Source: Acidobacteriota bacterium (GTDB lineage Bacteria > Acidobacteriota > Thermoanaerobaculia > UBA5066 > Gp7-AA6). Taken from it: 64,000 nucleotides of DNA. Numbering within the stretch: position 1 is the stretch's first letter; each line of letters begins with the position of its first letter. The stretch spans positions 1 to 64,000 of the forward strand of contig JAIVJS010000005.1 of assembly GCA_020199905.1 (NCBI GenBank). The letters run 5' to 3'. Of the stretch, positions 213 to 35,815 are shown piece after piece. The notes below the pieces were generated by a model. It saw only the letters and a list, made by a program, of their open reading frames with translations. It did not search any database and was not told the DNA's origin. The position numbers and the translations under genes were made by a program.

Positions 213-766
213 TTCGGCACATCCCAGAGACCCTTGACATCCGGGTGGTCCCACGGGATGCGGTATTCGTCAGGGGACGCGGGATCGAACGTCTCGGTCA
301 CCCAGTAAAGCAGCGAGCAGGGATTGGTGAGCGGCCGGTATCCGTGCGCGACCCCGATCGGAATCCGGATCAGCAGGTCCTGGCCGCCACCCGCGACGAT
401 CACCTGGGAGCGGCCGAACGTGGGCGAGCTCTTGCGGATGTCGTAGAGGACGACCTTCGCCTTCGAGGGGGGAGGAAAGAACCAGATGTCGTCCTGCCTC
501 AGGTGGTAGTGGAGCCCCTTGATGTGATCCTGCGCGTCCACGATCGAGAAGTTCATCTGAAGGGGCTGGGCGGCCGGCGCCGCAAAGAACTCCGCCAGCG
601 CGCGGCTTTCGGGATGGTTCTCCCGCGCGCGAAAGATCTCGAGGAAGAAGCCGCGGTCGTCGGTGAACCGCGTGAGCCTGAGCGTGCGGACACCCTCGAT
701 GGGCTTCTGCCGCTCATACGCCTTGGGAACCGAACGGAACTCGTCGGCGATGTCGTCGAATGTCAC
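206..766 (-). CDS. dTDP-4-dehydrorhamnose 3,5-epimerase-like cupin (RmlC-like)
   Basis: ORF 186 aa; motifs GVRTLRLTRFTDDRGFFLEIFR, QMNFSIVDAQDHIKGLHYHLRQDD, IPIGVAHGYRPLT typical of RmlC-like cupins. Confidence 0.85.
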   Translation of the reverse strand: MTFDDIADEFRSVPKAYERQKPIEGVRTLRLTRFTDDRGFFLEIFRARENHPESRALAEFFAAPAAQPLQMNFSIVDAQDHIKGLHYHLRQDDIWFFPPPSKAKVVLYDIRKSSPTFGRSQVIVAGGGQDLLIRIPIGVAHGYRPLTNPCSLLYWVTETFDPASPDEYRIPWDHPDVKGLWDVPNG

Positions 767-782
767 GAAGGGGGACGGTATC

Positions 783-920
783 AGTTGTCAGTGATCCGTT
801 GTCAGTTTTCGGTCGTCCCCGATCCCGTCACGGCCAGAGGCAATTTCTGCCTCCGGCCGTGAGAGTGCTGACCCCGACTTCCCTTTTTTCGATTCCCGAT
901 TCCCGATTCCCGATTCCCGG
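783..920. repeat. heptads (gttgtca/gtcagtt type) + hairpin + (GATTCCC)x4
   Basis: Hairpin 828-862 tcacggccagaggca-atttc-tgcctccggccgtga (14/15 paired); gattccc at 891, 898, 905, 912. Confidence 0.85.
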
Positions 921-937
921 CCCCTGGTCTCTCATCC

Positions 938-1645
938 TCAGCGCGAGGCGACCTTCGCCGCGTCGGGCTTGATCTCGCCAGCGGACTTCCACGCGATCGT
1001 GAAGCCGTTGCGCTTCTCGTACGAGAACTTCTTGTCGCCGTCGAAATGGTGCGTGCTGTACGCGAGGCGGAATCCGTCGTTCGAGTTGGAGAACCAGTAC
1101 TGAAGGTTCCCGACGACGGTCGGCGTCGCCTTGTCGGGGCCGAGCGCCTTGTCGAGATGAACGGAGGCCAGGCCGCTCGCGAGCTTCGCATCGGCGACCT
1201 TCACGCCGTCGGCGAAGGAGATCGAATCCTCCCGCGTCTCGAACTTCGACCACTTGACGGGGAATACGGTGTTCAAGATGGAGCCGATCGCCTTGCGCTG
1301 ATCGGGGGAGGAGCCTTTGTCGAACGTCACGACTGCCCATTTCGTCGGCATTCCCGGGCCGGGATGGTGATGCCATTCCCCGCCCAGGTCGAGCGAGACC
1401 CACACCATCTGGTTGGACAGGTCGACGTTGCCGTAGTGGCTTCCGGGGCGGAACTTGTAGACGTTGTTCGCCTCGCACATGTGCTCATCCGCGGAGGGGC
1501 CGAAGTAGCAGCTGCAGAAGAGGGGGCAGGAACAGGCCTCGATCGTGTCCGCGGTGACGTCGAAGGTTTTCGCGCGGTCAGGAGTGGCCGCGACGAGGAC
1601 GAGAGCCGCGAGCGCGGCAGCGGCGAGAGAGAGCGTTTTCTTCAC
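938..1645 (-). CDS. DUF1326 domain-containing secreted protein
   Basis: ORF 235 aa with signal peptide; ADTIEACSCPLFCSCYFG...HMCEAN pattern typical of DUF1326; upstream SD-like ggagga. Confidence 0.8.
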   Translation of the reverse strand: MKKTLSLAAAALAALVLVAATPDRAKTFDVTADTIEACSCPLFCSCYFGPSADEHMCEANNVYKFRPGSHYGNVDLSNQMVWVSLDLGGEWHHHPGPGMPTKWAVVTFDKGSSPDQRKAIGSILNTVFPVKWSKFETREDSISFADGVKVADAKLASGLASVHLDKALGPDKATPTVVGNLQYWFSNSNDGFRLAYSTHHFDGDKKFSYEKRNGFTIAWKSAGEIKPDAAKVASR

Positions 1646-1875
1646 GAGAATCCTCCTTTCAAATTGACGAGCCCGTTCCGCAACGGGCGTGCGGTTGGAC
1701 GCTTGGCATGGCCTCTGGAAACCTGCCGCAAAGTATCTCCCCGCCCGCGCCAGCGGCGCAACTGGCTCCGCGGGCCCGGCGGGGAGGGCCGGCCCCCTGT
1801 CCCGGCGCCCGGACAGAGGAGGAGGACGGCGTTCGCGGCGGAAGTGCTACGATTTCCGGCGTCCCGGAGGCCGAC

Positions 1876-2349
1876 ATGAAGAAGATCCTGACCGCCTGCC
1901 TGTTCGCCGCTGCCGTCGCTTCGGCCGCGCCCCTGCCGACGGATCCGCGAGAGCGGAACTTCAAGCTAATGGTCGATGGCGCCGAGGTCGCGGGCGTCGT
2001 CGGCTACCGGATCGAGTTCGCTCGGAACCCGATGAGCAAGGATGACCAGCGCCGGCTCGGGGTCGCGTACTCGCCCGACCAGCGCCGCCTCCTGATCACC
2101 GTCACCCAGAAGGGGCTCAACCAGCTGCAGGACTGGTTGAACAGCGCCACCGACACGTCCACGCCCGCGTCCAAGACAATCTCCATCCAGGCGAAGAACA
2201 ACCAGGACCAGCTGCTCGCCCGGTGGGATCTCTCCGGCGTGGTGCCCAGCACGTTCTCCTCCTCCGCGGCGGGGACCATCGACGAAGTGGATTCGACGGT
2301 CGAGTTTCTCTTCGACCGCCTGAGGCTGGTGGAGGCGAGCGCCAAGTAG
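1876..2349 (+). CDS. secreted hypothetical protein
   Basis: MKKILTACLFAAAVASAAPLP signal peptide; start moved to the ATG at 1876 inside ORF 1708..2349. Confidence 0.65.
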   Translation: MKKILTACLFAAAVASAAPLPTDPRERNFKLMVDGAEVAGVVGYRIEFARNPMSKDDQRRLGVAYSPDQRRLLITVTQKGLNQLQDWLNSATDTSTPASKTISIQAKNNQDQLLARWDLSGVVPSTFSSSAAGTIDEVDSTVEFLFDRLRLVEASAK

Positions 2350-2502
2350 CTTTCAGCTATCAGTTCGGTTGATCCCTCGCATTTCTTGCCGAACGACCCT
2401 CTGCTGCAGGCCTCAGCCTGGATCCGACGGGATGGGAGATTCGACGGCGCGGGCGAGAAGTCAGCGATCCGGTTTGCTGACAGCTGAGAGCTGAGAGCGA
2501 CA
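2350..2502. repeat. inverted CTTTCAG/CTATCAG and GCTGACA/GCTGAGA heptads flanking a ~110-bp convergent intergenic region
   Basis: ctttcagctatcag at 2350-2363; gctgacagctgagagctgaga at 2476-2496. Confidence 0.8.
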
Positions 2503-2510
2503 GCTTTCCC

Positions 2511-2882
2511 TCAGTGCCCCTTGTCGAGGTCGCGGATGGCCTCGAGGAAACCGTGGGGAGGGCGCTCGAAGCGGGCGCCAAACCCGGCTTGGCCCTCTTC
2601 CGTATCGGCGTGGACGACGCTCGCGCGGACGCGGAACGTGCGCGGATTGCCGGGCAGCGAAAAAATCAGGTCGACGTATTCCCCGAGACCGGGAACTCTC
2701 GGAGCGGCGACGTACATCCCCGCGAGGTTCACCTGCTCGACGTATCCCGTCATCTGCTCTTCCGCCCACTTCATGACCGCCGGGGCGCTCACGGGGATCC
2801 GGCGAGAAAGACGTTGCTCCGCGGGCTTCCGCGCCATGGGCGTTTTCTCCTGCATCGATGTCACCAAACGAATTTCTGACAC
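2511..2882 (-). CDS. PilZ domain-containing protein
   Basis: RRIPVSAPAVMKW...GYVEQVNLAGMYVAAPRVPGLGEYVDLIFSLP resembles PilZ; the start may be the internal MQEK. Confidence 0.7.
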   Translation of the reverse strand: MSEIRLVTSMQEKTPMARKPAEQRLSRRIPVSAPAVMKWAEEQMTGYVEQVNLAGMYVAAPRVPGLGEYVDLIFSLPGNPRTFRVRASVVHADTEEGQAGFGARFERPPHGFLEAIRDLDKGH

Positions 2883-23813: not shown

Positions 23814-25136
23814 TCAGCGATAGCTGCGAAGCGACAGCAGAAAGCGGACGCCCCCGACCCCCCGGACCACCGTCCTGGCCGCCAGCGCGGACACGAAGAC
23901 CCGGGTCCGCCGGTACGACAGGCTCGACTCGATCCCGGCCCCCAGGTCCACTCTGTAGTCGCGGAAGGCCCCGTAGACCGATGTTCCGTCCCCGACGTTT
24001 CCGGTCCCGGCGTACCCGACCGCATACAGGCTCTCCCAGTCGAGCCCCGCCACGTTCTTCCGGGCGTCCCGGAAGAACGGGACGGCGTACTCGGCGGTCA
24101 GGTGGGCCTCGCTGGTGCCGCGCTCGCGTCCGCGGTATCCGCGCAGGGCGTTCCGGCTGTCGAGCGAGAACAGCTCGTACCGGGGGATGGAGAACGGGGT
24201 CGAGACGGCGGGATCGAAGTTTTCGCGGACGCGTTTGCGGTAGGGAAAGTACCCGCCGTGCAGCCGGAGAACGAGCCGGTTACGGCCCGTCGGGATGGCC
24301 TGGATCGCCTCGAACTCGGTCTTCACGTAGGTGTAATCCGCGCCGAGGAGGTCGACACTCCAGGTGGCGGCCACGGAGAAGCCCCGGCCGTGGGGCCCGA
24401 TCTCCCGCAGGGCGGTGAAGAGGTTGAAGACCCGGTCGCGCGCCTCTCCCACGATCGCGTTCGACCGCTCGTCTGACGGGGTTCCGTACTGGTATCCGGT
24501 CTTCAAATACAGGTTCGTCTTGTTCGCGTCGGGCTCCTCGAGCGGGTTCGAGAACGTGAGGCGGTCGAACTCGGCGAGCCCGTACAGCCGGTTGTAGAAG
24601 TCGAGGGGCACCCGGAGGAGATAGAGGCCGCCGCGAGTCCGCGTGAACTCATTGGAAAAGCGGGAGAGGTCGGAAAACTCGATCGTGTCGAAGAACGAGA
24701 ACGTCGACGTCCCCGTCCGGCCGTAGTACTTGTAGCGGAGAAACGCCGAGATGTCGCCGCTGACGAAGTTGTAGGCGACCTGCATCTCGAAGAGAGAATT
24801 GCGGATCGGCTTCAGGAGCCGGATGTCCGCCCGGCCGTCGGGCAGATAGAGGTTGAAGCGGGGCAGGAGACCGGAGGTGTCGGGTTCTTCGGCGGGAGCG
24901 GGCGCTCCCGGAGTCCCGGGCCGCGGCGGTTCCCTGAGGGCCTCCTCCCCGGGCGCCTCCGCCGGGCCGGCCGTGCCCTCGGAGGCGGGCGTCGGAGCGG
25001 GGGTCGGAGAAGGCGCCGGCTGCGCGCGAGACGGCGCCGCGGGCAGCGAAAGAAACAGGAGAACGACCGCCAGCGCCGAACGCAACGCCGGCGCCGCGGC
25101 GGGGCGGGGACGAGGAGAATGCGGCCGGCCAGCCAC
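23814..25136 (-). CDS. outer-membrane protein, BamA/Omp85-like beta-barrel
   Basis: Signal peptide and Pro/Ala-rich linker; LDSRNALRGYRGRERGTSEAHLTAEYAVPFF (RGYRGRE motif) and terminal beta-strand pattern. Confidence 0.65.
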   Translation of the reverse strand: MAGRPHSPRPRPAAAPALRSALAVVLLFLSLPAAPSRAQPAPSPTPAPTPASEGTAGPAEAPGEEALREPPRPGTPGAPAPAEEPDTSGLLPRFNLYLPDGRADIRLLKPIRNSLFEMQVAYNFVSGDISAFLRYKYYGRTGTSTFSFFDTIEFSDLSRFSNEFTRTRGGLYLLRVPLDFYNRLYGLAEFDRLTFSNPLEEPDANKTNLYLKTGYQYGTPSDERSNAIVGEARDRVFNLFTALREIGPHGRGFSVAATWSVDLLGADYTYVKTEFEAIQAIPTGRNRLVLRLHGGYFPYRKRVRENFDPAVSTPFSIPRYELFSLDSRNALRGYRGRERGTSEAHLTAEYAVPFFRDARKNVAGLDWESLYAVGYAGTGNVGDGTSVYGAFRDYRVDLGAGIESSLSYRRTRVFVSALAARTVVRGVGGVRFLLSLRSYR

Positions 25137-25158: not shown

Positions 25159-25998
25159 TCAGGCCTTGGGCTGCATCACGAGCGACATCTTGTCCTGGAA
25201 GGACTTCATCTTCGCAGGTCCCCGCATCGAGGAAATGGTCTTCTCCGTCTGCCGGATCAGATCGCGCACGGCTTCGACGCCTCGCCCACGGTCGATCTCC
25301 GTGAGGGCCTGCTTGTAGGGCCGTTCGACTCCCGGCAGGTTCGACTCCCCGATCGCGATCTCCGCCTCCTGTTTGACGCGCGTGCACAGGATCATGAGGA
25401 TCTTTTTCTCGTCTCCGAGCAACGCGGCCGCCGAGCCGGGGGAGGGGGCCGGCGGGCGCGCCGCGTCTCGCGACCTCATCTCGACGAGACCGGCCGTGAT
25501 CAGCCCGTAGAGAATCTTGGCCGTCTCGAACGAGGAGGTGCCGGTGCCGCGCGCGATCTCCTCGACGCTCTTCCTGCCATCGATCCGGATGACGAGGTTC
25601 CATTCGAGGGGCGAGAGGGTCACGGGCTCCGCGTCCCGGGGCAGAAAGGCGGGGACGTATTCGACGCCGGGGATCTTTCGCGAAAGGACCTTCCACTCGT
25701 CCAACCGGCGCGCGGACTCCATCAGGAGGCTCGTGTTGGACTTCTGGATCGTGACCGCGTCGGACTCTTCTCCCGGCGTGAACTGGAAATCGCCGGAGGA
25801 CCAGATCGCGAGGGCGTAGATCGCTTCCTCGCCGGAGAGCTCGCCGATCTTCGCGTGCACCATCTGTCCGTTCTTGAGAAAGATCTGGCCTCTCTCGGTC
25901 CCGCGGATCAGCGTGAACAGCCCCGTCTTTCCGGAGACCGAAACCAGCTGAATGATGTCGGGAACGGGGAGCTCCTGGATAGAGCCTTGAAAGGACAT
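25159..25998 (-). CDS. DUF4388 domain-containing protein
   Basis: MSFQGSIQELPVPDIIQLVSVSGKTGLFTLIRGTERGQIFLKNGQMVHAKIGELSGEEAIYALAIWSSGDFQFTPG. Confidence 0.85.
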   Translation of the reverse strand: MSFQGSIQELPVPDIIQLVSVSGKTGLFTLIRGTERGQIFLKNGQMVHAKIGELSGEEAIYALAIWSSGDFQFTPGEESDAVTIQKSNTSLLMESARRLDEWKVLSRKIPGVEYVPAFLPRDAEPVTLSPLEWNLVIRIDGRKSVEEIARGTGTSSFETAKILYGLITAGLVEMRSRDAARPPAPSPGSAAALLGDEKKILMILCTRVKQEAEIAIGESNLPGVERPYKQALTEIDRGRGVEAVRDLIRQTEKTISSMRGPAKMKSFQDKMSLVMQPKA

Positions 25999-26033: not shown

Positions 26034-26250
26034 AGAGTTAAGAGTTGAGAGCTCGGAGTTGAGCGTGGTGAGCGCGCCGGCTCCTTCGTTTCCCGTTTAC
26101 CGTTTCCCGGCCCCGGTTCCCCCTCTTCGATTCCCGATTCCCGATCCAGTGGACCGCGGAGTACCGCGGCCGTCTCGCTCCCGTTGGTCGCTCGGCTCCC
26201 GATTCCCGGCTCCCGATCCCGTCCGCCCCGGCTCCCGCCTCCCGCCTACC
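26034..26250. repeat. AGAGTTG heptads + GTTTCCC/GATTCCC heptads + core element copy 4
   Basis: agagtta agagttg agagctc ggagttg (26034-26061); core gatccagtggaccgcggagtaccgcggccgtctcgctcccgttggtcgctcggctcccg from 26143; gattccc/ggctccc heptads after it. Confidence 0.9.
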
Positions 26251-26719
26251 CCCTGCCTCTGTGCACATGGCATATCGCGACCGCGAGAGCGTCCGCGGCG
26301 TCGAGAGGAACGCGGCTGCGCTGCCGGGCGAGCAGCGACAGGACCATCGAGCGGACCTGCGGCTTCTCCGCATTTCCGTAGCCGACGAGAGCCTTCTTGA
26401 CGAGCCGGGGCTCGTACTCGAAGACGGGGATCCCGAGCTTCGCGGCGGCCGCGAGCAGGACCCCGCGCGCGTGGGCGAGTTTCAGGGCGGAGGCGACGTT
26501 TTTCCCCGCGAAGATGGTCTCGACCGCGACGGCGGCCGGGCGGCACTCGTCCAGAAGCATGGACGCCCGGCAGGAGAGCATGTCGAGCTTCGCCGAGAAG
26601 GAGAGCGCCGCTCCCGGCCGAAAGACCCCGCAGGCCTCGAGGACCAGGCGGCCCTCGTCGAACACGACCACGCCATAGCCGGTGGCGAGGGTCCCCGGGT
26701 CGAAACCGACGATCTTCAA
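26246..26719 (-). CDS. ruvC: crossover junction endodeoxyribonuclease RuvC
   Basis: MKIVGFDPGTLATGYGVVVFDEG...AVAVETIFAGKNVASALKLAHARGVLLAAA...DAADALAVAICH. Confidence 0.95.
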   Translation of the reverse strand: MKIVGFDPGTLATGYGVVVFDEGRLVLEACGVFRPGAALSFSAKLDMLSCRASMLLDECRPAAVAVETIFAGKNVASALKLAHARGVLLAAAAKLGIPVFEYEPRLVKKALVGYGNAEKPQVRSMVLSLLARQRSRVPLDAADALAVAICHVHRGRG

Positions 26720-26722
26720 GGA

Positions 26723-26789
26723 GCCGTCAGCCGTCCGCTCTCAGCCGTCAGGTTCAGACGGAAAACTGATGACCGCCAACGGAAAACTA
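26723..26789. repeat. GCCGTCA/GCTCTCA heptads between ruvC and yebC
   Basis: gccgtca gccgtcc gctctca gccgtca ... cggaaaactgatgaccgccaacggaaaacta. Confidence 0.7.
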
Positions 26790-27518
26790 TTCGGCTTCCT
26801 CGAAGTCGAAGTTCGCCCAGACGTGCTGCACGTCATCGTGGTCCTCGAGGGCCTCCATCAGCTTCATCATCTGATCGGCCTTTCGCTGGTCGAGCTGGAC
26901 CTCGGTCGTCGGGATCATCGAGAGCTCGCCGACGGCGACCGGGATCTTCTTCTCTTCGAGGTGCGCCTTCACGGCCGCAAACGAGTCGGGGTCCGTGACG
27001 ACCTCGTGGTACTGCTCCGTCGAGCGGACGTCTTCCGCTCCCGCCTCGATGGCGGCCTCCATGACGGAGTCCTCGGTCGCCTGGTTCTTCTCGACGGCGA
27101 TGTAGCCCTTCTTCTGGAAGAGGAACCGGACGGACCCGGATTCGCCGAGGTTGCCGCCGTTCTTCGAGAAAATCGTGCGGACTTCGGGCAGTGTGCGGTT
27201 CCGGTTGTCCGTCATGGCCTCGACGAGGACGGCGACCCCGCCGGGCCCGTACCCCTCGTACGTCACCTCTTCGTAATTGACCCCGGGAAGCTCGCCGGTC
27301 CCGCGCTGGAGAGCCCGCTTGATGTTGTCCGCGGGCATGTTGACGGCCTTGGCGTCGTCGATCGCCTTTCGCAGGCGCGGGTTGCTCTCGGGAGCGCCGC
27401 CACCGAGACGCGCGGCCATCGTGATTTCCTTGATGAGCTTGGTGAAGATGCGGCCGCGCTTGGCATCCGCCGCGCCCTTCTTGTGTTTGATCGTACTCCA
27501 CTTGCTGTGGCCGGACAT
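26787..27518 (-). CDS. yebC: YebC/PmpR family DNA-binding regulator
   Basis: [41 protein letters not shown]...[23 protein letters not shown]. Confidence 0.97.
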
Positions 27519-27829: not shown

Positions 27830-30670
27830 ATGGCAAAAAAGGTCCTCCTGATCGACTACGAGCCGCGCTCGGTGGAGCGCGTGCGGACTCTTCTTCCTTC
27901 TCCGGAATACGCCGTCAGCGTGGCCAAAGACGGGGAAGAAGGGCTCACCCTCGCGGGGGCGTCATCATTCGACCTGATCGTCCTGGGGGGGATGCTTCCC
28001 CGCCTTCCGAGCGCCGAGGTCATCCGGGAGATCCGCCGAAAGGGGGGAGCGACGGCCCCCCCGATTCTCCTCGTCGTCTCCGGGTATCACGGCTCGAACC
28101 CCAAGGCCGACGCCCAGCGTGTCGGGGCCTTCGACATCGTCGTGCGGCCCTACACCGACGAAGATTTTCTCGGCGCCGTCCGGTCCGCGCTCGACTCCGG
28201 AGAGGCGGGAGCGCGGACGATGCGGATACCCGTTTCCGACATCGCCGCCGCGCAGCCCGCTCTGACCTCCGACGACATCTTTTCGGACGTTCTCGAGGAC
28301 GTCGCGAGCGAGCGATCGTTCTCCGAGGTGACTCCGCCGCGAGCGGTGATGCCTCCGATGACGGCCGAGGAGCAGATCGAGAAGCGCCTCCGCGAGACCC
28401 TTTCCGGAATGGTCGACCGGGCCTCGACGCGGCGTCCCATCGCGCCGCCTCCGCCCCCACCTCCGCTGGCGTTTTCGGGCGGAGCGGCTCCTGCGGTTCC
28501 CCGGTTCTCGACCGACGCGGACATCGACCGGATGATCTCGGACACGCTCTCCGGATTGAAGACGCCGCCCGCCCGGCCGAGGCCCTCGCCGGATGCGGCC
28601 CCCGAGTTCGGCATCCAGGTGGAGACTCCGCCCCCGGCTTTCGCGCCTCCCGTGTTACGCGCTTCACCGCCCCCGTCTCCGGCGGCCCCGCCCTCCGCCC
28701 CCCCTCGGTCCTCCCAGCCTCATCCCGTGAGCTCGTCCGGCCCGGACCAGTTCGGGCGGTACGAGTTGCTGGAGAAGATCGCCTCGGGCGGAATGGCGGA
28801 GCTGTCCAAGGCGCGGCGGTCCGGCGTCGAAGGGTTCCAGAAGATCGTCGCCATCAAGAAGATCCTTCCCCACCTCGCCGACAACGACGAATTCATCACG
28901 ATGTTCGCCGACGAGGCGAAGCTCGCGGCCCAGCTCAACCATCCGAACATCGTTCACATCTTCGACCTCGGGAAGATCGAGGCCGGCGGCTACTTCATCG
29001 CGATGGAGTTCGTGGACGGAAGAGATCTCCGCTCCCTCCTCCAGTCGGCGCGCGACTTCGGGACCCCGCTCCCGGTGCCTCTCGCGGTCTACATCGCCTC
29101 GAAGATCGCGGCGGCGCTCGACTACGCGCACAGGAGGCGGGACGGCGAAGGACGCGAGTTGAACGTCGTCCACCGCGACGTCTCTCCTCCCAACATCCTC
29201 ATCTCCTACGAGGGCGACATCAAGCTGTGCGATTTCGGAATCGCGAAGGCCGCGTCCAAGGCCTCGCAGACGCAGTCCGGGGCCCTCAAGGGGAAGGTCC
29301 AGTACATGTCTCCGGAGCAGGCGTGGGGACGGCCGATCGACCGCCGCAGCGACATCTTTTCGCTCGGCTGCGTGCTCTTCGAAATGCTGGCGGAACAGAA
29401 GCTCTTCCGCGGCGATACGGACCTGTCGGTGCTCGAGAAGGTCCGGGCGGCTCAGGTCGTCGCGCCCTCGACGTTGAACCCCGAGGTCCCGAAGGCGCTG
29501 GACGCCATCGTCCTGAAAGCGCTCGCCCGCGAGCCGGAGGAGCGATACGGGATCGCGTCCGACATGCTCCGCGACCTCGAAGGCGTCCTGTACTCGTACA
29601 CGCCCGCGCCGGGCAGCGCGGATCTCGCCATCTATCTGCACCGGCTGCAGGCGGAGGAGAGCGCGCGGCAGGAGTCGCTCGATCGCGAGGCGTCGCGAGG
29701 CGCCCCGCCGGAGCCGGAACGAAAGAGAAAGTCGAAGGGCGCTCCCGTGGTCCGGCGGACCGGCTCGACCCCGAAGCTGGTCGTTCCGCCGCATACTCTC
29801 GAGGCGGAAGCCGGGGCCTCCGTCCCCTCGGAGAAAAAGGAACCGAGGAACTCGGGAGTGTTCGGCTCCTTCTCCCCGAAGAAGCTCGAGTCGGAGCGCA
29901 AGAGCCGCGTCCCGCTCTACGCGATGATCGTCATCGCCGCCCTGCTCCTCGCGGGACTCGCCGTCTGGCTGACGCGCCGCCCGTCGGCGGCGGCTCCCGT
30001 CGCGATCATGCCCACGGCCGTTCCGGCGGCCGCCCCGACCGCGGCGCCGCTTCCAGCGGCCGTCACTCCCGCGTCGGGCGTCGATCCGAAGGCGATCGAA
30101 GAGGAAGTGCAGCGCCAGCTCGCCGCCCGCCGCAAGGAGCTGCAGAAGACCCTCGCGTCTCAAAAACCGGCGAAGGAAACGGCGCCCGCGGCGCCCGTCC
30201 CCGCGCCGAAAAAGGTCGAGGAAGCTCCCGCCGCCGCTCCTCGCGTCACGGTTCACGAGCCGGCGCCCGAGCCCGCCCGGCAGCAGGAGCCCGCCCCGCG
30301 CGAGAGCCCGCCGGAGCCGACCGCCGTTCCGCCGCCGCCCGCGCGCGCCGAGGCGAAAGAGGAGATCTCGCGAGGAGACCTCGTGGGACCGGGCGCCGGC
30401 GTCGTCGAGCCCAGCCTGCTGTCGACCCCCCGGGTCACCTATCCGGCGATTGCGCGGCAGCAGCGTCTGAACGGCAAAGTCGTCGTGCTCGTTCTGGTGA
30501 CGGAAGATGGGCAGGTCTCCGAGGCTCGGCTTCAGCAGGGCCTCCCGTCGCGGAGCGGAGTCAACGAAGCCGTGGTCGACGCAGTGCGTGCCGCGAAGTT
30601 CAGAGCGGCGACCAAGAACGGGGTCGCGGTCAAGATGTGGCGGACGGTGGTGGTCGACGTCAGGCCGTAA
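27830..30670 (+). CDS. multidomain protein: degenerate receiver domain, Ser/Thr protein kinase, TM helix, TonB C-terminal domain
   Basis: N-term MAKKVLLIDYEPRSVERVRTLL (receiver-like); kinase VAIKKILPHL, VVHRDVSPPNILI, LCDFGIAKA; TM MIVIAALLLAGLAVWL; C-term PRVTYPAIARQQRLNGKVVVLVLVTEDGQVSEARLQQG...AVVDAVRAAKFRAATKNGVAV. Confidence 0.88.
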   Translation: MAKKVLLIDYEPRSVERVRTLLPSPEYAVSVAKDGEEGLTLAGASSFDLIVLGGMLPRLPSAEVIREIRRKGGATAPPILLVVSGYHGSNPKADAQRVGAFDIVVRPYTDEDFLGAVRSALDSGEAGARTMRIPVSDIAAAQPALTSDDIFSDVLEDVASERSFSEVTPPRAVMPPMTAEEQIEKRLRETLSGMVDRASTRRPIAPPPPPPPLAFSGGAAPAVPRFSTDADIDRMISDTLSGLKTPPARPRPSPDAAPEFGIQVETPPPAFAPPVLRASPPPSPAAPPSAPPRSSQPHPVSSSGPDQFGRYELLEKIASGGMAELSKARRSGVEGFQKIVAIKKILPHLADNDEFITMFADEAKLAAQLNHPNIVHIFDLGKIEAGGYFIAMEFVDGRDLRSLLQSARDFGTPLPVPLAVYIASKIAAALDYAHRRRDGEGRELNVVHRDVSPPNILISYEGDIKLCDFGIAKAASKASQTQSGALKGKVQYMSPEQAWGRPIDRRSDIFSLGCVLFEMLAEQKLFRGDTDLSVLEKVRAAQVVAPSTLNPEVPKALDAIVLKALAREPEERYGIASDMLRDLEGVLYSYTPAPGSADLAIYLHRLQAEESARQESLDREASRGAPPEPERKRKSKGAPVVRRTGSTPKLVVPPHTLEAEAGASVPSEKKEPRNSGVFGSFSPKKLESERKSRVPLYAMIVIAALLLAGLAVWLTRRPSAAAPVAIMPTAVPAAAPTAAPLPAAVTPASGVDPKAIEEEVQRQLAARRKELQKTLASQKPAKETAPAAPVPAPKKVEEAPAAAPRVTVHEPAPEPARQQEPAPRESPPEPTAVPPPPARAEAKEEISRGDLVGPGAGVVEPSLLSTPRVTYPAIARQQRLNGKVVVLVLVTEDGQVSEARLQQGLPSRSGVNEAVVDAVRAAKFRAATKNGVAVKMWRTVVVDVRP

Positions 30671-30762: not shown

Positions 30763-30987
30763 ATGAGCCTTTCTCCGGATCAGAAGAAGTTCTACGAAAA
30801 CACGCTCTCCGTCACCAAACGGGAGATCAACGACCTGGAAGGCCTCATTCAAGAGGAGCTCGCCAAGGTCAAGGACCGGCTGGCGGAGCTTCAGAACGCC
30901 CAGAAAGCGGCGCGTCAGATGTATGACGCCGCGTGCATGCGCCTCGGCATTCCGAACGATCTCGAAGAAGCCGAAGCCCAGGGCTGA
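30763..30987 (+). CDS. small coiled-coil hypothetical protein (74 aa)
   Basis: ORF with SD-like gaggagg upstream; KREINDLEGLIQEELAKVKDRLAELQNAQKAARQMYDAA heptad helix. Confidence 0.6.
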   Translation: MSLSPDQKKFYENTLSVTKREINDLEGLIQEELAKVKDRLAELQNAQKAARQMYDAACMRLGIPNDLEEAEAQG

Positions 30988-31015
30988 TCTCTCCCGCGCC
31001 CGGGAGGATGCTCGC

Positions 31016-31912
31016 ATGGCTCCTGCGGCCGAAGCGGTCCGCCTCGCCGTGCCCCCGGGGCGTGCGCTGCTTGTCGCCTTCGCCCTTCTTGGCGCCGCGC
31101 ACTGCCGGCGAAACGAGACTTCGCCTCCCGTTTCGAGGGTGGCCGCCCATCCGGCGCCGGCGCGGCGCGTGGTCGCTCTCGCGCCCAACCTCACGGAGAT
31201 CGTTTTCGCGCTCGGCTCGGGCTCCACCCTCGTCGGCGTCTCCGAGCACTCGGATTTTCCGGAGGCCACCCGGTCGATCCCCCGCGTCGGCGGCCTCGAG
31301 GTCAGCGCGGAACGTGTGGCGTCCCTGACTCCCGACCTGGTGCTCGCCACCGCGGACGGCGGCAACCGCAAAGGCGCCGTCTCCGCCCTCGAGGCGTCCG
31401 GAGTTCCCGTGCTGGTCGTCCCGGGCGGATCGCTCGACGAAGTCCTCTCCGGAATCTTTCTCGTCGCCGGCCGGCTCGGTCGCGACGCCGAGGCCGCGCG
31501 TCTGACCGACTCCCTGCGGAAGCGGCGCGAGGCCGTCCGGCAGTCGGTCGCGGCGCGTCCCCGTCCGCGAGCCGTGCTGCTCGTCTGGCCCGATCCACCC
31601 TCGGCCGCCGGCGGCGGCACGTTCTTAGACGACGTGCTCACCGAAGCGGGCGCGCAGAACCTGCTTTCCGACCGGCCAGGCTGGCCCGTCGTCTCGGGGG
31701 AATGGCTCGCGACCGCGCCGATCGAGGTGGTCGTGGTTCCCGATTCCCCGGTGAACCGGCCGGTATTCGAGCGGTCCTTCGCTTCGGGCGCCCTGTCGCG
31801 CGGATCGATCCGGGCCGCGCGGGTCGTGCGCGTGGACGAATCTTCGCTGACCCGTCCCGGGCCGCGCGTCTTCGACGCTCTGGAGCAGCTCGCGCGGGGC
31901 CTCTCGCGTTGA
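31016..31912 (+). CDS. cobalamin/iron-type ABC transporter substrate-binding lipoprotein (BtuF-like)
   Basis: Lipobox LLGAAHC; RRVVALAPNLTEIVFALGSGSTLVGVSEHSDFPEATRSIPRVGGLEVSAERVASLTPDLVLA. Confidence 0.85.
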   Translation: MAPAAEAVRLAVPPGRALLVAFALLGAAHCRRNETSPPVSRVAAHPAPARRVVALAPNLTEIVFALGSGSTLVGVSEHSDFPEATRSIPRVGGLEVSAERVASLTPDLVLATADGGNRKGAVSALEASGVPVLVVPGGSLDEVLSGIFLVAGRLGRDAEAARLTDSLRKRREAVRQSVAARPRPRAVLLVWPDPPSAAGGGTFLDDVLTEAGAQNLLSDRPGWPVVSGEWLATAPIEVVVVPDSPVNRPVFERSFASGALSRGSIRAARVVRVDESSLTRPGPRVFDALEQLARGLSR

Positions 31913-32880
31913 GAGCCCGCGGGCCCGCCCTCTGGCTGACCGCGGCGGCGATTCTCGGGGGCTGCCTCGTGCTCGGCGTGTCCGTTGGCGGCGTCCGGCT
32001 GTCGCCTCTCGCGGTCTGGTCGGGCGCGGGACCGGAGGGCGAGACCGCGCGCCTCATCGCCTCGATACGGATACCCCGCGTGGCGCTCGCGGCCCTGGTG
32101 GGCGCCTGCCTCGCCCTGGCCGGCGCCGCCCTTCAGGCCCTGTTGAAGAATCCGCTCGCCGATCCGTTTCTTCTCGGCACCTCCGGGGGCGCCGCCACCG
32201 GAGCCGCCCTGGCGAGCCTCCTCGGCGTCTCACCCCTCCTCTCGCCCGGGGCGGCGTTCGCCGGCGCGGTGGTCTCCTCGGTCGGCGTCGCCGCCCTGGC
32301 GCGCCGCGGCGGACGGCTCGACCTGCAACGCCTCCTGCTCGGCGGGTTGATCGCGAACGCGTTTTTTTCCGCGGTCCTTCTCGGTGTCTTTTCTCTCGCC
32401 TCCTCCGAGACGGCGAGGACGATGCTCTTCTGGATGATGGGGAGTCTCGCGGACGCGTCGCCGCAGAAGCCACTCGCGCTCCTGCCCTACGCCGTCGTCG
32501 GCGCGGCGGCCCTTCTCGGATCGGCGTCGCGCCTGAATCTCTTTTCCGTGGGAGAGGAGAACGCGGCGGCGCTCGGCGTCCACACCGAGAGGTCGAAGGC
32601 GGTGATCTTCCTGGCGTCATCTCTGCTGACGGGCGCGGCGGTCGCGTTTGCGGGCGTGATCGGGTTCGTCGGCCTGCTGGTTCCGCACGCCGCTCGCAGC
32701 GTCGTGGGAAACGACCAGCGGACTCTGCTGCCTCTCTCCGCGATTTCGGGCGCCGCGCTTCTCGTCGCCGCCGACGCGGTCTCGCGCGCGGTTGCGGCAC
32801 CGGCGGAGCTTCCTATCGGCGCGGTCACGGCGGCGATCGGCGCCCCCGTCTTCGTCTACCTGCTTCTTCGCACCCCGTGA
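31909..32880 (+). CDS. FecCD/BtuC-family ABC transporter permease
   Basis: IRIPRVALAALVGACLALAGAALQALLKNPLADPFLLGTSGGAATGA...GFVGLLVPHAAR; TTG start overlaps the upstream stop (TTGA). Confidence 0.9.
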   Translation: MRARGPALWLTAAAILGGCLVLGVSVGGVRLSPLAVWSGAGPEGETARLIASIRIPRVALAALVGACLALAGAALQALLKNPLADPFLLGTSGGAATGAALASLLGVSPLLSPGAAFAGAVVSSVGVAALARRGGRLDLQRLLLGGLIANAFFSAVLLGVFSLASSETARTMLFWMMGSLADASPQKPLALLPYAVVGAAALLGSASRLNLFSVGEENAAALGVHTERSKAVIFLASSLLTGAAVAFAGVIGFVGLLVPHAARSVVGNDQRTLLPLSAISGAALLVAADAVSRAVAAPAELPIGAVTAAIGAPVFVYLLLRTP

Positions 32881-33671
32881 CGGCGCCGCCCCGTATCGAG
32901 GCTCGCGCGCTGAAGGCCGCCTACGGCCCGAACCCCGCGTTGTGCGGGCTCGACGCGGTGTTTCAGTCGGGCGAGATCGTCGCGATCCTGGGGGAGAACG
33001 GGTCCGGAAAATCCACGCTTCTCAAGGTCATCGCGCGGATCGTCGCGCCGGACGGCGGCGAACTGCTCTTCGACGGCCGGCCTCTCGCGGCGATTCCGCG
33101 CCGGGACACAGCGCGCCGCGTCGCCTACGTGGCCCAGAGCGCCGACCTGGTCTTTCCAATCCGCAGCCTCGACCTGGTGCTCCAGGGCCGCGCCCCTCAC
33201 GGGCGCGGGTTCTCGGCCGACTCCCCGGAGGACCGGTCTCTGGCGCTCGAGGCCATGCGCGCCTGCGACGTCGCCGGGCTCGCCGACCGCGACGCGTCGG
33301 CCCTTTCGGGCGGCGAGCGGCGCCGCGTGTTTCTCGCCCGCGCGCTGGCGCAGGAGGCCGAAGTCTGGCTTCTCGACGAGCCGACCTCGGGCCTCGATCC
33401 GCGCCACCGCATCGACTTCCTGGACGTGCTCGTGCGGGAGCACCGCGCGCGCTCGACGACGGTCCTGCTCGTCACCCACGAAGTGGATCTGGCGCTGTCG
33501 CTGGCAGACCGCGTTCTTCTGCTGCGGGCTGGCCGGGTCCTGGCCTCGGGAACGCCGCAGGAGGCGCTGACGCCCGGAACTCTGAGAGAGGTCTTCGACG
33601 TCGAAGCCCGCGTGGATCGCGACGCGGATGGCCACCGGCGTGTGATGTGGGTGGGGAGGACCGGCCCCTGA
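32877..33671 (+). CDS. ABC transporter ATP-binding protein (BtuD/FecE-like)
   Basis: [36 protein letters not shown]...[39 protein letters not shown] overlap with the permease. Confidence 0.92.
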
Positions 33672-33705: not shown

Positions 33706-34410
33706 ATGGACCCGCTGAAATTCCGCGACACCAAGCGCTACCGCGACCGGCTGAAGCAGTACCAGGAGAGCGTCGGCACCTCCGACGCGATCGTGATCGG
33801 CTCCGGAACGATGGGCGGGATCCCCGTCATCATCGGCGCGATGGAGTTCTTCTTCCTCGGCGGTTCTATGGGGTCCGTCGTCGGAGAGAAGGTCACGCGG
33901 GCGGCCGAGAGGGCCCTTTCCGAGCGCAAGCCGCTGCTGATCGTCTCGACCTCGGGGGGCGCCCGGATGCAGGAGGGGATCCTCTCCCTCATGCAGATGG
34001 CAAAGATCGCGGGCGCGCTCGCCCGGCTCTCGGACGCCGGGGTTCCCTACGTCTCCATCATGTCCGATCCGACGACGGGAGGCGTTACGGCCTCCTACGC
34101 GATGCTGGGCGACCTGAACGTGGCGGAGCCGAACGCGCTCATCGGTTTCGCCGGACCGCGCGTCATCGAGCAGACGATCCGGCAGACGCTGCCCGAGGGA
34201 TTCCAGCGCTCGGAGTTTCTCCTGGAGCACGGAATGCTCGATTTCCTGGTCGACCGATCCGAGATGAAGGAGACCCTCGTGCGGTGCTTGAACCTCATGT
34301 GGTCGGGAGAGGCAGCGAGCCGGGAAACGGGAAACGGGAGCCGAGCGACCAACGGGACCGAGACGGCCGCGGTACTCCGCGGTCAACTCGATCGAGACTC
34401 TCAACCCTGA
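33706..34410 (+). CDS. accD: acetyl-CoA carboxylase carboxyltransferase beta subunit lacking the N-terminal zinc-ribbon domain
   Basis: Starts at [58 protein letters not shown]...[18 protein letters not shown]...[29 protein letters not shown]; no CxxC...CxxC; folC downstream. Confidence 0.85.
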
Positions 34411-34471: not shown

Positions 34472-35815
34472 GTGAAGAATCTCAGCCGCCTCGAGTCCCT
34501 GGGCCAGCGCGGCATGCGTCTGGGCTTGGAAGCGATCGGCGCGGCGTGCGAACGGCTCGGGAGGCCCGAGCGGGACTTTCCCTCCGTTCTCATCGGGGGG
34601 ACCAACGGCAAGGGCTCGACCGCCGCGACTCTCTCGTCGCTCGCCGTGGAGGCCGGCTTGCGGCCCGGCCTCTACACATCGCCTCATCTCGTGGCAGTCA
34701 CGGAGCGGATCCGCATCGGCCGCGAGGACGCGCCGCCCGGGGCGCTCGACGAGGCGCTCGGGCGGGTCTTCGCGGCGGTGGACGCGGCTCCCGCGATCCC
34801 GTTCACCTACTTCGAGGCGACGACGGCGGCGGCGTTCCTGCTCTTCGCCGGCGCGGGCGTCGACGTCGGGATCCTGGAGGTGGGGCTCGGAGGCCGTTTC
34901 GACGCCACGAACGTCGCTCCGGCGGGGCTTTCCGTGATCACGTCCATCGCGTTCGATCACATGGCGGAGCTCGGCGGGACGCTGCCCCTGATCGCCCGGG
35001 AGAAGGCCGGGATCTTCCGCACCGGGCGTCCCGCGCTGATCCGCGCGGAGGCGGAGGAGGCGCTCGCGGCCCTGCGCGACGCGGCGGCCCGCGCCGGGGC
35101 CGTTCTCCACGAGGCGCCGTCCGAGCTCGCGGTCGCCGCGCGGTCGGTGTCCTCCCTCGGCACCGCTTTCGATCTCGAGACGCCGGAGCGGCGAATTTTT
35201 CTCCGGACGCCCCTGCCGGGGGAGCACCAGGCCTGGAACGCGGCCCTCGCCGTGCGCGCCGCGGAGCTCTTCCCCGAGGTCTTCGGACGGCTCCAGGCGG
35301 AGGCCGTCGCGCGCGGCGTCGAGAACGTGCGGTGGCCGGGACGGCTGGAGCTCCTGCGGCCGCCGGAAGGGCGCCCCGTTCTGCTGGACGGCTGCCACAA
35401 CCCGGAAGGCGCGCGTTCTCTCGCCCGATTTCTGCGGGACTCCGGGCTTTCCGGGCTCTGCCCGCTCGTCTTCGGAGGCATGGCCGACAAGGATCTCGAA
35501 GGGATCGCGCGCGAGCTCTTCCCCGCGGTCTCGGAAGTGGTTCTGGTGCGGGCGGCGCCCCCGCGTGGAGCGTCGCCCGACGAGCTCCTCGAGCGCGTCG
35601 GACACTTCGCTTCTCGCGCGCGGACGGCGCCCGATGTCCTCGCCGGAATCGCCGCGCTTTCCCTCGATGCGGCGGGACGGCCGCCGCGAGAGTCTCCATC
35701 GCCGCCTATAATCGTGGCCGGTTCCCTCTATCTCGTCGGAGAGGCCCGCGCTCACCTCGCCCCGGCTGAGAGCGGCGGCGCGGACCCGGGGGGTCGGGGA
35801 GAAGGACGCTCTTGA
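34472..35815 (+). CDS. folC: folylpolyglutamate synthase / dihydrofolate synthase
   Basis: VLIGGTNGKGSTAATLSSLAVEAGLRPGLYTSPHLVAVTERIRIG...LLDGCHNPEGARSL; GTG start. Confidence 0.93.
   Translation: MKNLSRLESLGQRGMRLGLEAIGAACERLGRPERDFPSVLIGGTNGKGSTAATLSSLAVEAGLRPGLYTSPHLVAVTERIRIGREDAPPGALDEALGRVFAAVDAAPAIPFTYFEATTAAAFLLFAGAGVDVGILEVGLGGRFDATNVAPAGLSVITSIAFDHMAELGGTLPLIAREKAGIFRTGRPALIRAEAEEALAALRDAAARAGAVLHEAPSELAVAARSVSSLGTAFDLETPERRIFLRTPLPGEHQAWNAALAVRAAELFPEVFGRLQAEAVARGVENVRWPGRLELLRPPEGRPVLLDGCHNPEGARSLARFLRDSGLSGLCPLVFGGMADKDLEGIARELFPAVSEVVLVRAAPPRGASPDELLERVGHFASRARTAPDVLAGIAALSLDAAGRPPRESPSPPIIVAGSLYLVGEARAHLAPAESGGADPGGRGEGRS

Follow-up and report, generated by a model that had tools for sequence, protein, structure and literature searches.

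A conserved Acidobacteriota protein family combining a pseudo-receiver, a predicted active Ser/Thr kinase and a TonB C-terminal domain, with a linked small gene

The window, a 64,000-nucleotide stretch of the genome of an Acidobacteriota bacterium, contains on its plus strand an ORF of 946 codons that starts with ATG at 27830 and whose stop codon ends at 30670. The encoded protein runs from an N-terminal pseudo-receiver through a Ser/Thr kinase, a single transmembrane (TM) helix and a Pro/Ala-rich linker to a TonB C-terminal domain (TonB_C), and a small gene for a 74-residue protein follows it. The features of the region are listed here with the evidence for each (aa, residues of the 946-residue protein).

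25159..25998, minus strand: DUF4388 protein, conserved neighbour (PF14332, 2.4e-24; 28/43 loci)
26246..26719, minus strand: ruvC (Pfam, 1.2e-39)
26787..27518, minus strand: yebC/TACO1 family gene, divergent from the kinase (32/43 loci)
27830..30670, plus strand: pseudo-receiver, Ser/Thr kinase, TM, Pro/Ala linker and TonB_C gene, 946 aa (ORF and domain scan)
27842..28180, plus strand: pseudo-receiver domain, aa 5-117 (Pfam Response_reg, E 8.9e-11, and family alignment)
28265..28294, plus strand: linker motif TSDDIFSDVL, aa 146-155 (motif B, shuffle comparison)
28370..28411, plus strand: linker motif EQIEKRLRETLSGM, aa 181-194 (resembles the motif at 231)
28520..28558, plus strand: linker motif DIDRMISDTLSGL, aa 231-243 (motif A, shuffle comparison)
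28760..29557, plus strand: protein kinase domain, aa 311-576, catalytic residues complete, invariant activation-loop T481 (Pfam Pkinase, E 7e-39)
29915..29971, plus strand: predicted single TM helix, aa ~696-714, without histidine (hydropathy)
29972..30430, plus strand: Pro/Ala-rich linker, predicted periplasmic, ~150 residues, with a short helical stretch at aa ~753-776
30431..30649, plus strand: TonB C-terminal domain, aa 868-940, with YP motif (Pfam, E 9.8e-13; TIGR01352, E 2e-11; AlphaFold2; Foldseek)
30763..30987, plus strand: gene for a 74-aa helical/coiled-coil protein, paired with the kinase and conserved
30923..31912, plus strand: BtuF-type periplasmic binding protein (Peripla_BP_2, 2e-20)
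31702..32880, plus strand: FecCD/BtuC-type permease (2.1e-82; coordinates of the listed ORF, the true start probably lying further inside)
32877..33671, plus strand: BtuD-type ATPase (ABC_tran, 3.1e-30)
33706..34410, plus strand: accD-like carboxyl transferase (2.3e-25; 37/50 loci)
34472..35815, plus strand: folC-like Mur ligase family gene (37/50 loci)

All three Pfam domains of the window protein exceed their curated cut-offs, and the residues quoted in an earlier sequence-only reading of this DNA (VAIKK, HRDVSPPN, DFG and the receiver sites) are all present. The fusion described in that reading is widespread. Scanning one genome for each prokaryote species yielded 80 relatives; almost all are from Acidobacteriota (Thermoanaerobaculia, Holophagae and others), and a few lie elsewhere, such as in candidate division CSSED10-310 and in Nitrospirae, whose kinases carry neither receiver nor TonB_C. 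HMMs built from the window protein detect kinase and TonB_C together in 60 sequences, window included, and 53 of these 60 also contain the receiver and have the full architecture, the remainder being mostly cut at a contig end. Recurrence of this domain order in 53 sequences from many genomes rules out a chance fusion or assembly join; judged from sequence, the kinase-TonB_C architecture is a conserved family at the level of the phylum rather than a single fusion. A plasmid search returned zero records covering 80% of the query, and the best matches there span the kinase region only.

In the kinase domain the Gly loop, K343, E362, the HRD motif, N455, the DFG motif, T481 and the SPE Glu are invariant in 81/81 sequences, and the window protein has each of the elements by which active Hanks-type Ser/Thr kinases are recognized (Gly loop, VAIK Lys, αC Glu, HRD, Asn, DFG and APE-type Glu). 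Given this invariance the kinase should be active, in line with the intact kinase proposed earlier.

The N-terminal domain departs from canonical receivers at the phosphotransfer residues. The window protein has D9-Y10, G53 in the phosphoacceptor column, S84 and R106-P107, placing Gly53 and Tyr10 where a canonical receiver has the phosphoacceptor Asp and the second acidic residue, as had been read from the single sequence. With the register fixed by a conserved Pro at D+4, the phosphoacceptor column of a 65-sequence alignment contains S (28), T (24), N (8), A (3), C (1) and G (1) and Asp in 0/65; in these sequences Tyr occupies the second acidic position 50 times, and K or R stands in the Lys column 58 times; an intact acidic pocket occurs nowhere in this alignment. 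In a wider set, Asp is found in 3/94 receivers and Ser/Thr at the Asp position in 68/94, and on these residues we class the domain as a pseudo-receiver across the family. It is otherwise well conserved (E/D-Y-E-P, LP, SGY and an invariant Pro107) despite the lost Asp, which indicates retention for a role outside phosphotransfer. Autophosphorylation at a Ser/Thr in the Asp position is inapplicable to the window protein, which has Gly there. Receiver family members without phosphotransfer residues have been described as PsR proteins, in which Asn at DD2 and Glu at D are common replacements (PMC12632262). The window family shares this lack and differs from them in its attachment to a Ser/Thr kinase and TonB_C and in carrying E/D-Y-E-P and, at the Asp position, S/T as characteristic residues.

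The cytoplasmic linker contains two recurrent motifs. Motif B, resembling [ST]S[DE][DE][IL]FxD[IV]L, is present in 61/97 linkers (0.05 expected in shuffled linkers) and motif A, resembling DVDxxLxxTLxGL, in 33/97 (0 expected), in a comparison that guards against composition only, since the motifs were defined after the family had been seen and the sequences are related. Both are candidate docking sites.

A hydrophobic 19-mer at residue 696 (mean KD 2.55) forms the only strong TM segment and lies between the kinase and TonB_C, where a single TM had been proposed; the positive-inside bias around it is weak. In the family, TM and TonB_C are separated by a tether of about 120-284 residues (median ~164). 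TonB_C scores 48.8 bits against a Pfam cut-off of 24.6 (PF03544) and 44.1 against a cut-off of 27.1 for NCBIfam TIGR01352 (tonB_Cterm). AlphaFold2 run on the whole window protein as a single sequence gave a mean pLDDT of 41, limiting the structure check to TonB_C, for which a 60-row alignment as input gave a model with a mean pLDDT of 89.7. In a Foldseek search of the PDB with this model the top 16 matches are TonB C-terminal domains, including that of the TonB homologue FusB, and the top hits have a probability of 1.00. The best of them (6i97_D, 1u07, 2gsk and 2grx) include complexes with the receptors FoxA (6i97), BtuB (2gsk) and FhuA (2grx), and TolA is listed as a much weaker match. The family sequence profile matches TonB chains only in the PDB. 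The identity of TonB_C is firm by sequence cut-offs, model and PDB matches together, so that the C-terminus has the TonB-like fold that the sequence-only reading had supposed.

The TM helix of TonB carries a His that couples the protein to ExbB/ExbD. This residue is present in six TonBs inspected by eye, of which five are encoded next to ExbB/ExbD in homologous loci and one belongs to this genome. Like TonB energy transducers, the window protein has a TM, a Pro-rich periplasmic tether and a TonB_C with YP motif and TonB fold; unlike them it has a large N-terminal receiver and kinase, and the ExbB-coupling His is absent from the TM in 60/60 kinase-TonB_C proteins. The kinase-TonB_C protein therefore probably senses rather than energizes, and its TonB_C is likelier to probe than to be driven. 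A role of the kinase TonB_C as energy transducer for adjoining ExbB/ExbD was dropped, since the operon of those genes already encodes a TonB and His is missing from the kinase TM.

The gene neighbourhood was counted in receiver and TonB_C loci with enough flanking sequence (43 upstream, 50 downstream). The commonest upstream order is DUF4388, tonB, exbD, exbD, exbB, ruvC and yebC, divergent from the kinase, and the commonest downstream order is kinase, small gene, (btuF, btuC, btuD), accD and folC. ExbB lies upstream in 16/43 loci (DUF4388, 28/43; YebC, 32/43) and a BtuF/C/D-type importer downstream in 23/50 (AccD and FolC, 37/50), and ExbB or Btu-type genes or both accompany the kinase in 31/39 loci covered on both sides. 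One ExbB and two ExbD genes are found in many homologous loci, in an operon that encodes its own His-bearing TonB. The window retains DUF4388, ruvC, yebC, btuFCD, accD and folC; the TonB-ExbB-ExbD-ExbD genes of its genome lie on another contig (C55), and a search of that genome gives 19 matches to the Plug domain of TonB-dependent receptors. A ~440-aa ORF (23814-25136, minus strand) between an OmpA-family gene and the DUF4388 gene has no Pfam match and may not be a gene. With housekeeping genes (ruvC, yebC, accD, folC) among the neighbours, the gene order may be inherited and is weak evidence of function. Of the earlier suggestion that signalling is tied to the outer membrane, the Ton genes nearby and the structural matches to TonB C-terminal domains speak in favour, and contact with a receptor remains putative.

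These two observations also bear on the reading of the protein as an envelope sensor of the PASTA kinase kind, in which TonB_C would report the state of the cell wall by binding peptidoglycan or some ligand in the periplasm instead of TonB boxes. TonB C-terminal domains have been reported to bind peptidoglycan. The best NCBIfam kinase model is that of the PASTA kinases (NF033483, E 1.4e-89), with a match that ends at residue 717, just past the TM, and PASTA-type kinases (PknB/Stk1) have the identical layout of kinase, TM and extracytoplasmic sensor. However, the score of 301.7 bits is below the family cut-off of 450, the Pfam scan of the window protein detected no PASTA repeats, and unlike PknB/Stk1 the protein has TonB_C in their place and a pseudo-receiver at its N-terminus. 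With Ton-pathway genes as frequent neighbours and receptor-binding TonB C-terminal domains as the structural matches, we regard this reading as rather unlikely.

The 74-aa gene starts 13-223 bp past the kinase stop in 64/71 loci with a complete 3' end; its product is 38-82% identical in the aligned set and has no above-threshold match in Pfam or NCBIfam. It is also found beside kinases without TonB_C or without receiver. Used as its own query to measure the spread across genomes, the small protein is detected in 58/149 genomes of the phylum and in 49/61 genomes and 37/39 genera of the class, essentially always in single copy. In 40 loci fetched through the small gene, which share some contigs with the first set and are thus not fully independent of it, a kinase lies directly upstream in 33/40 (gap 17-146 bp), and 28 of these 33 kinases have TonB_C. 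Two of the remaining 7/40 loci are truncated and five are kinase-less: L163 and L165 encode pseudo-receiver, TM and TonB_C, L164 pseudo-receiver and TM, and L149 and L155 TM and TonB_C only, without receiver or kinase. The kinase-less pseudo-receivers (L163, L164, L165) have Glu at the phosphoacceptor Asp position, and motif B is kept in L165 and motif A in L163. Kinase, receiver and TonB_C therefore behave as exchangeable parts around the small gene. The phylum-level family, the small downstream gene, the linker motifs, the absent TonB His and the kinase-less relatives had all escaped the sequence-only reading.

A modular design of this kind is known from Myxococcus xanthus, where GltG (PglI) consists of FHA, TM and TonB_C and where GltG and GltJ are modular TolA/TonB-like proteins (PMC3169522, PMC5349195). 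In layout only, the window protein is like GltG and GltJ (AgmX), with a cytosolic signalling domain, a single TM, a long flexible periplasmic part and TonB_C, and by this comparison they are its closest described relatives in design. It differs from them in its cytosolic part, a pseudo-receiver with an active-looking kinase, and in the extra 74-aa partner gene, and the Pfam scan gave no match to a GltG-type FHA head. The likeness would fit a machine of the Agl-Glt type, in which the TonB_C protein would tie the outer membrane to cytoplasmic regulators and to a motor of the ExbB/ExbD type, and the kinase would be one of a number of alternative heads in the cytoplasm. L163 and L165, which keep pseudo-receiver, TM, TonB_C and small gene without the kinase, are consistent with such a machine, as are the one ExbB and two ExbD genes of many loci. 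Set against this, the ExbB/ExbD operon has its own His-bearing TonB, the kinase TM lacks that His and no glt-like genes occur among the scanned neighbours, and we consider such a machine unlikely.

Finally, TonB_C might be a generic protein-protein or dimerization module with no outer-membrane or Ton link, the kinase signalling alone or with the small protein. The genome of the window has ten TonB_C matches on very different proteins, including a pseudokinase (L089, ORF 487-2574, plus strand) that has lost HRD and DFG and has no obvious TM, so that TonB_C need not mean outer-membrane contact; moreover, kinase and small-gene loci without a detected TonB_C exist (L070, L076-L078, L083, L086). 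Yet TM and TonB_C persist without the kinase in L149, L155, L163 and L165, which suggests that selection acts on the periplasmic arm in its own right, and a generic module is improbable. The contig of the pseudokinase also has three Plug-domain (TonB-dependent receptor) matches. Elsewhere in the genome L091 (minus strand, 569 aa), a third type of such protein, combines a Ser/Thr kinase, a TM and a weak TonB_C, and L003 and L005 are two nearby, apparently exported TonB_C proteins, one of which has a long Pro/Thr-rich stretch and about 250 residues beyond TonB_C.

By the features tested, the window protein belongs to the TonB_C family and the Hanks-type kinases, and is not a canonical receiver, PASTA kinase or TonB transducer. 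From the domains, family conservation, gene pairing and neighbourhood observed, and a predicted topology, our tentative reading (probability roughly 0.4) is that of a trans-envelope sensor kinase with a TonB_C arm in contact with a putative outer-membrane or periplasmic partner; in operation it would resemble a single-pass receptor kinase that has TonB_C for its outer sensor. On this view the cytoplasm would hold the pseudo-receiver, the disordered linker and the active kinase, and the single TM and long Pro/Ala tether would place TonB_C in the periplasm, able to reach through the peptidoglycan. There TonB_C may read the state of receptor or envelope by binding a partner in the outer membrane or periplasm, for which the TonB-box segments of TonB-dependent receptors are plausible candidates; ExbB/ExbD probably do not drive the protein, given a TM without the TonB His. 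Binding would change the association state of the kinase and the phosphorylation of its activation loop (T481), the pseudo-receiver would serve as an Asp-independent regulatory or docking domain, and the 74-aa coiled-coil protein could be a cytoplasmic partner (adaptor, inhibitor or substrate), perhaps docked on the linker motifs. The partner, the direction of the signal and the role of the small protein are what we infer here. The fuller proposal, a previously undescribed phylum-wide outer-membrane-to-cytoplasm system in which a non-energized TonB_C samples TonB-dependent receptors and switches the kinase, tuned by pseudo-receiver and 74-aa partner, is doubtful.

No kinase-TonB_C or receiver-Hanks-kinase fusion is described in the open-access literature searched, which does not prove absence, and the protein is apparently an undescribed, conserved variant of modular TonB_C signalling proteins such as GltG and GltJ, with a strongly linked small gene. 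Since the design and its 74-aa partner gene are conserved across much of the phylum, they probably represent a real, unstudied link from envelope to kinase. Signalling by TonB-dependent receptors runs mainly via anti-sigma/ECF sigma pairs. If the proposed reading is true, a kinase with its own TonB_C would connect the outer envelope directly to protein phosphorylation and so add a second route, in the Acidobacteriota, a phylum for which few genetic tools exist. Because the kinase is present or absent beside the same pseudo-receiver, TonB_C and small protein, the conserved gene pair offers an entry to how pseudo-receivers act.
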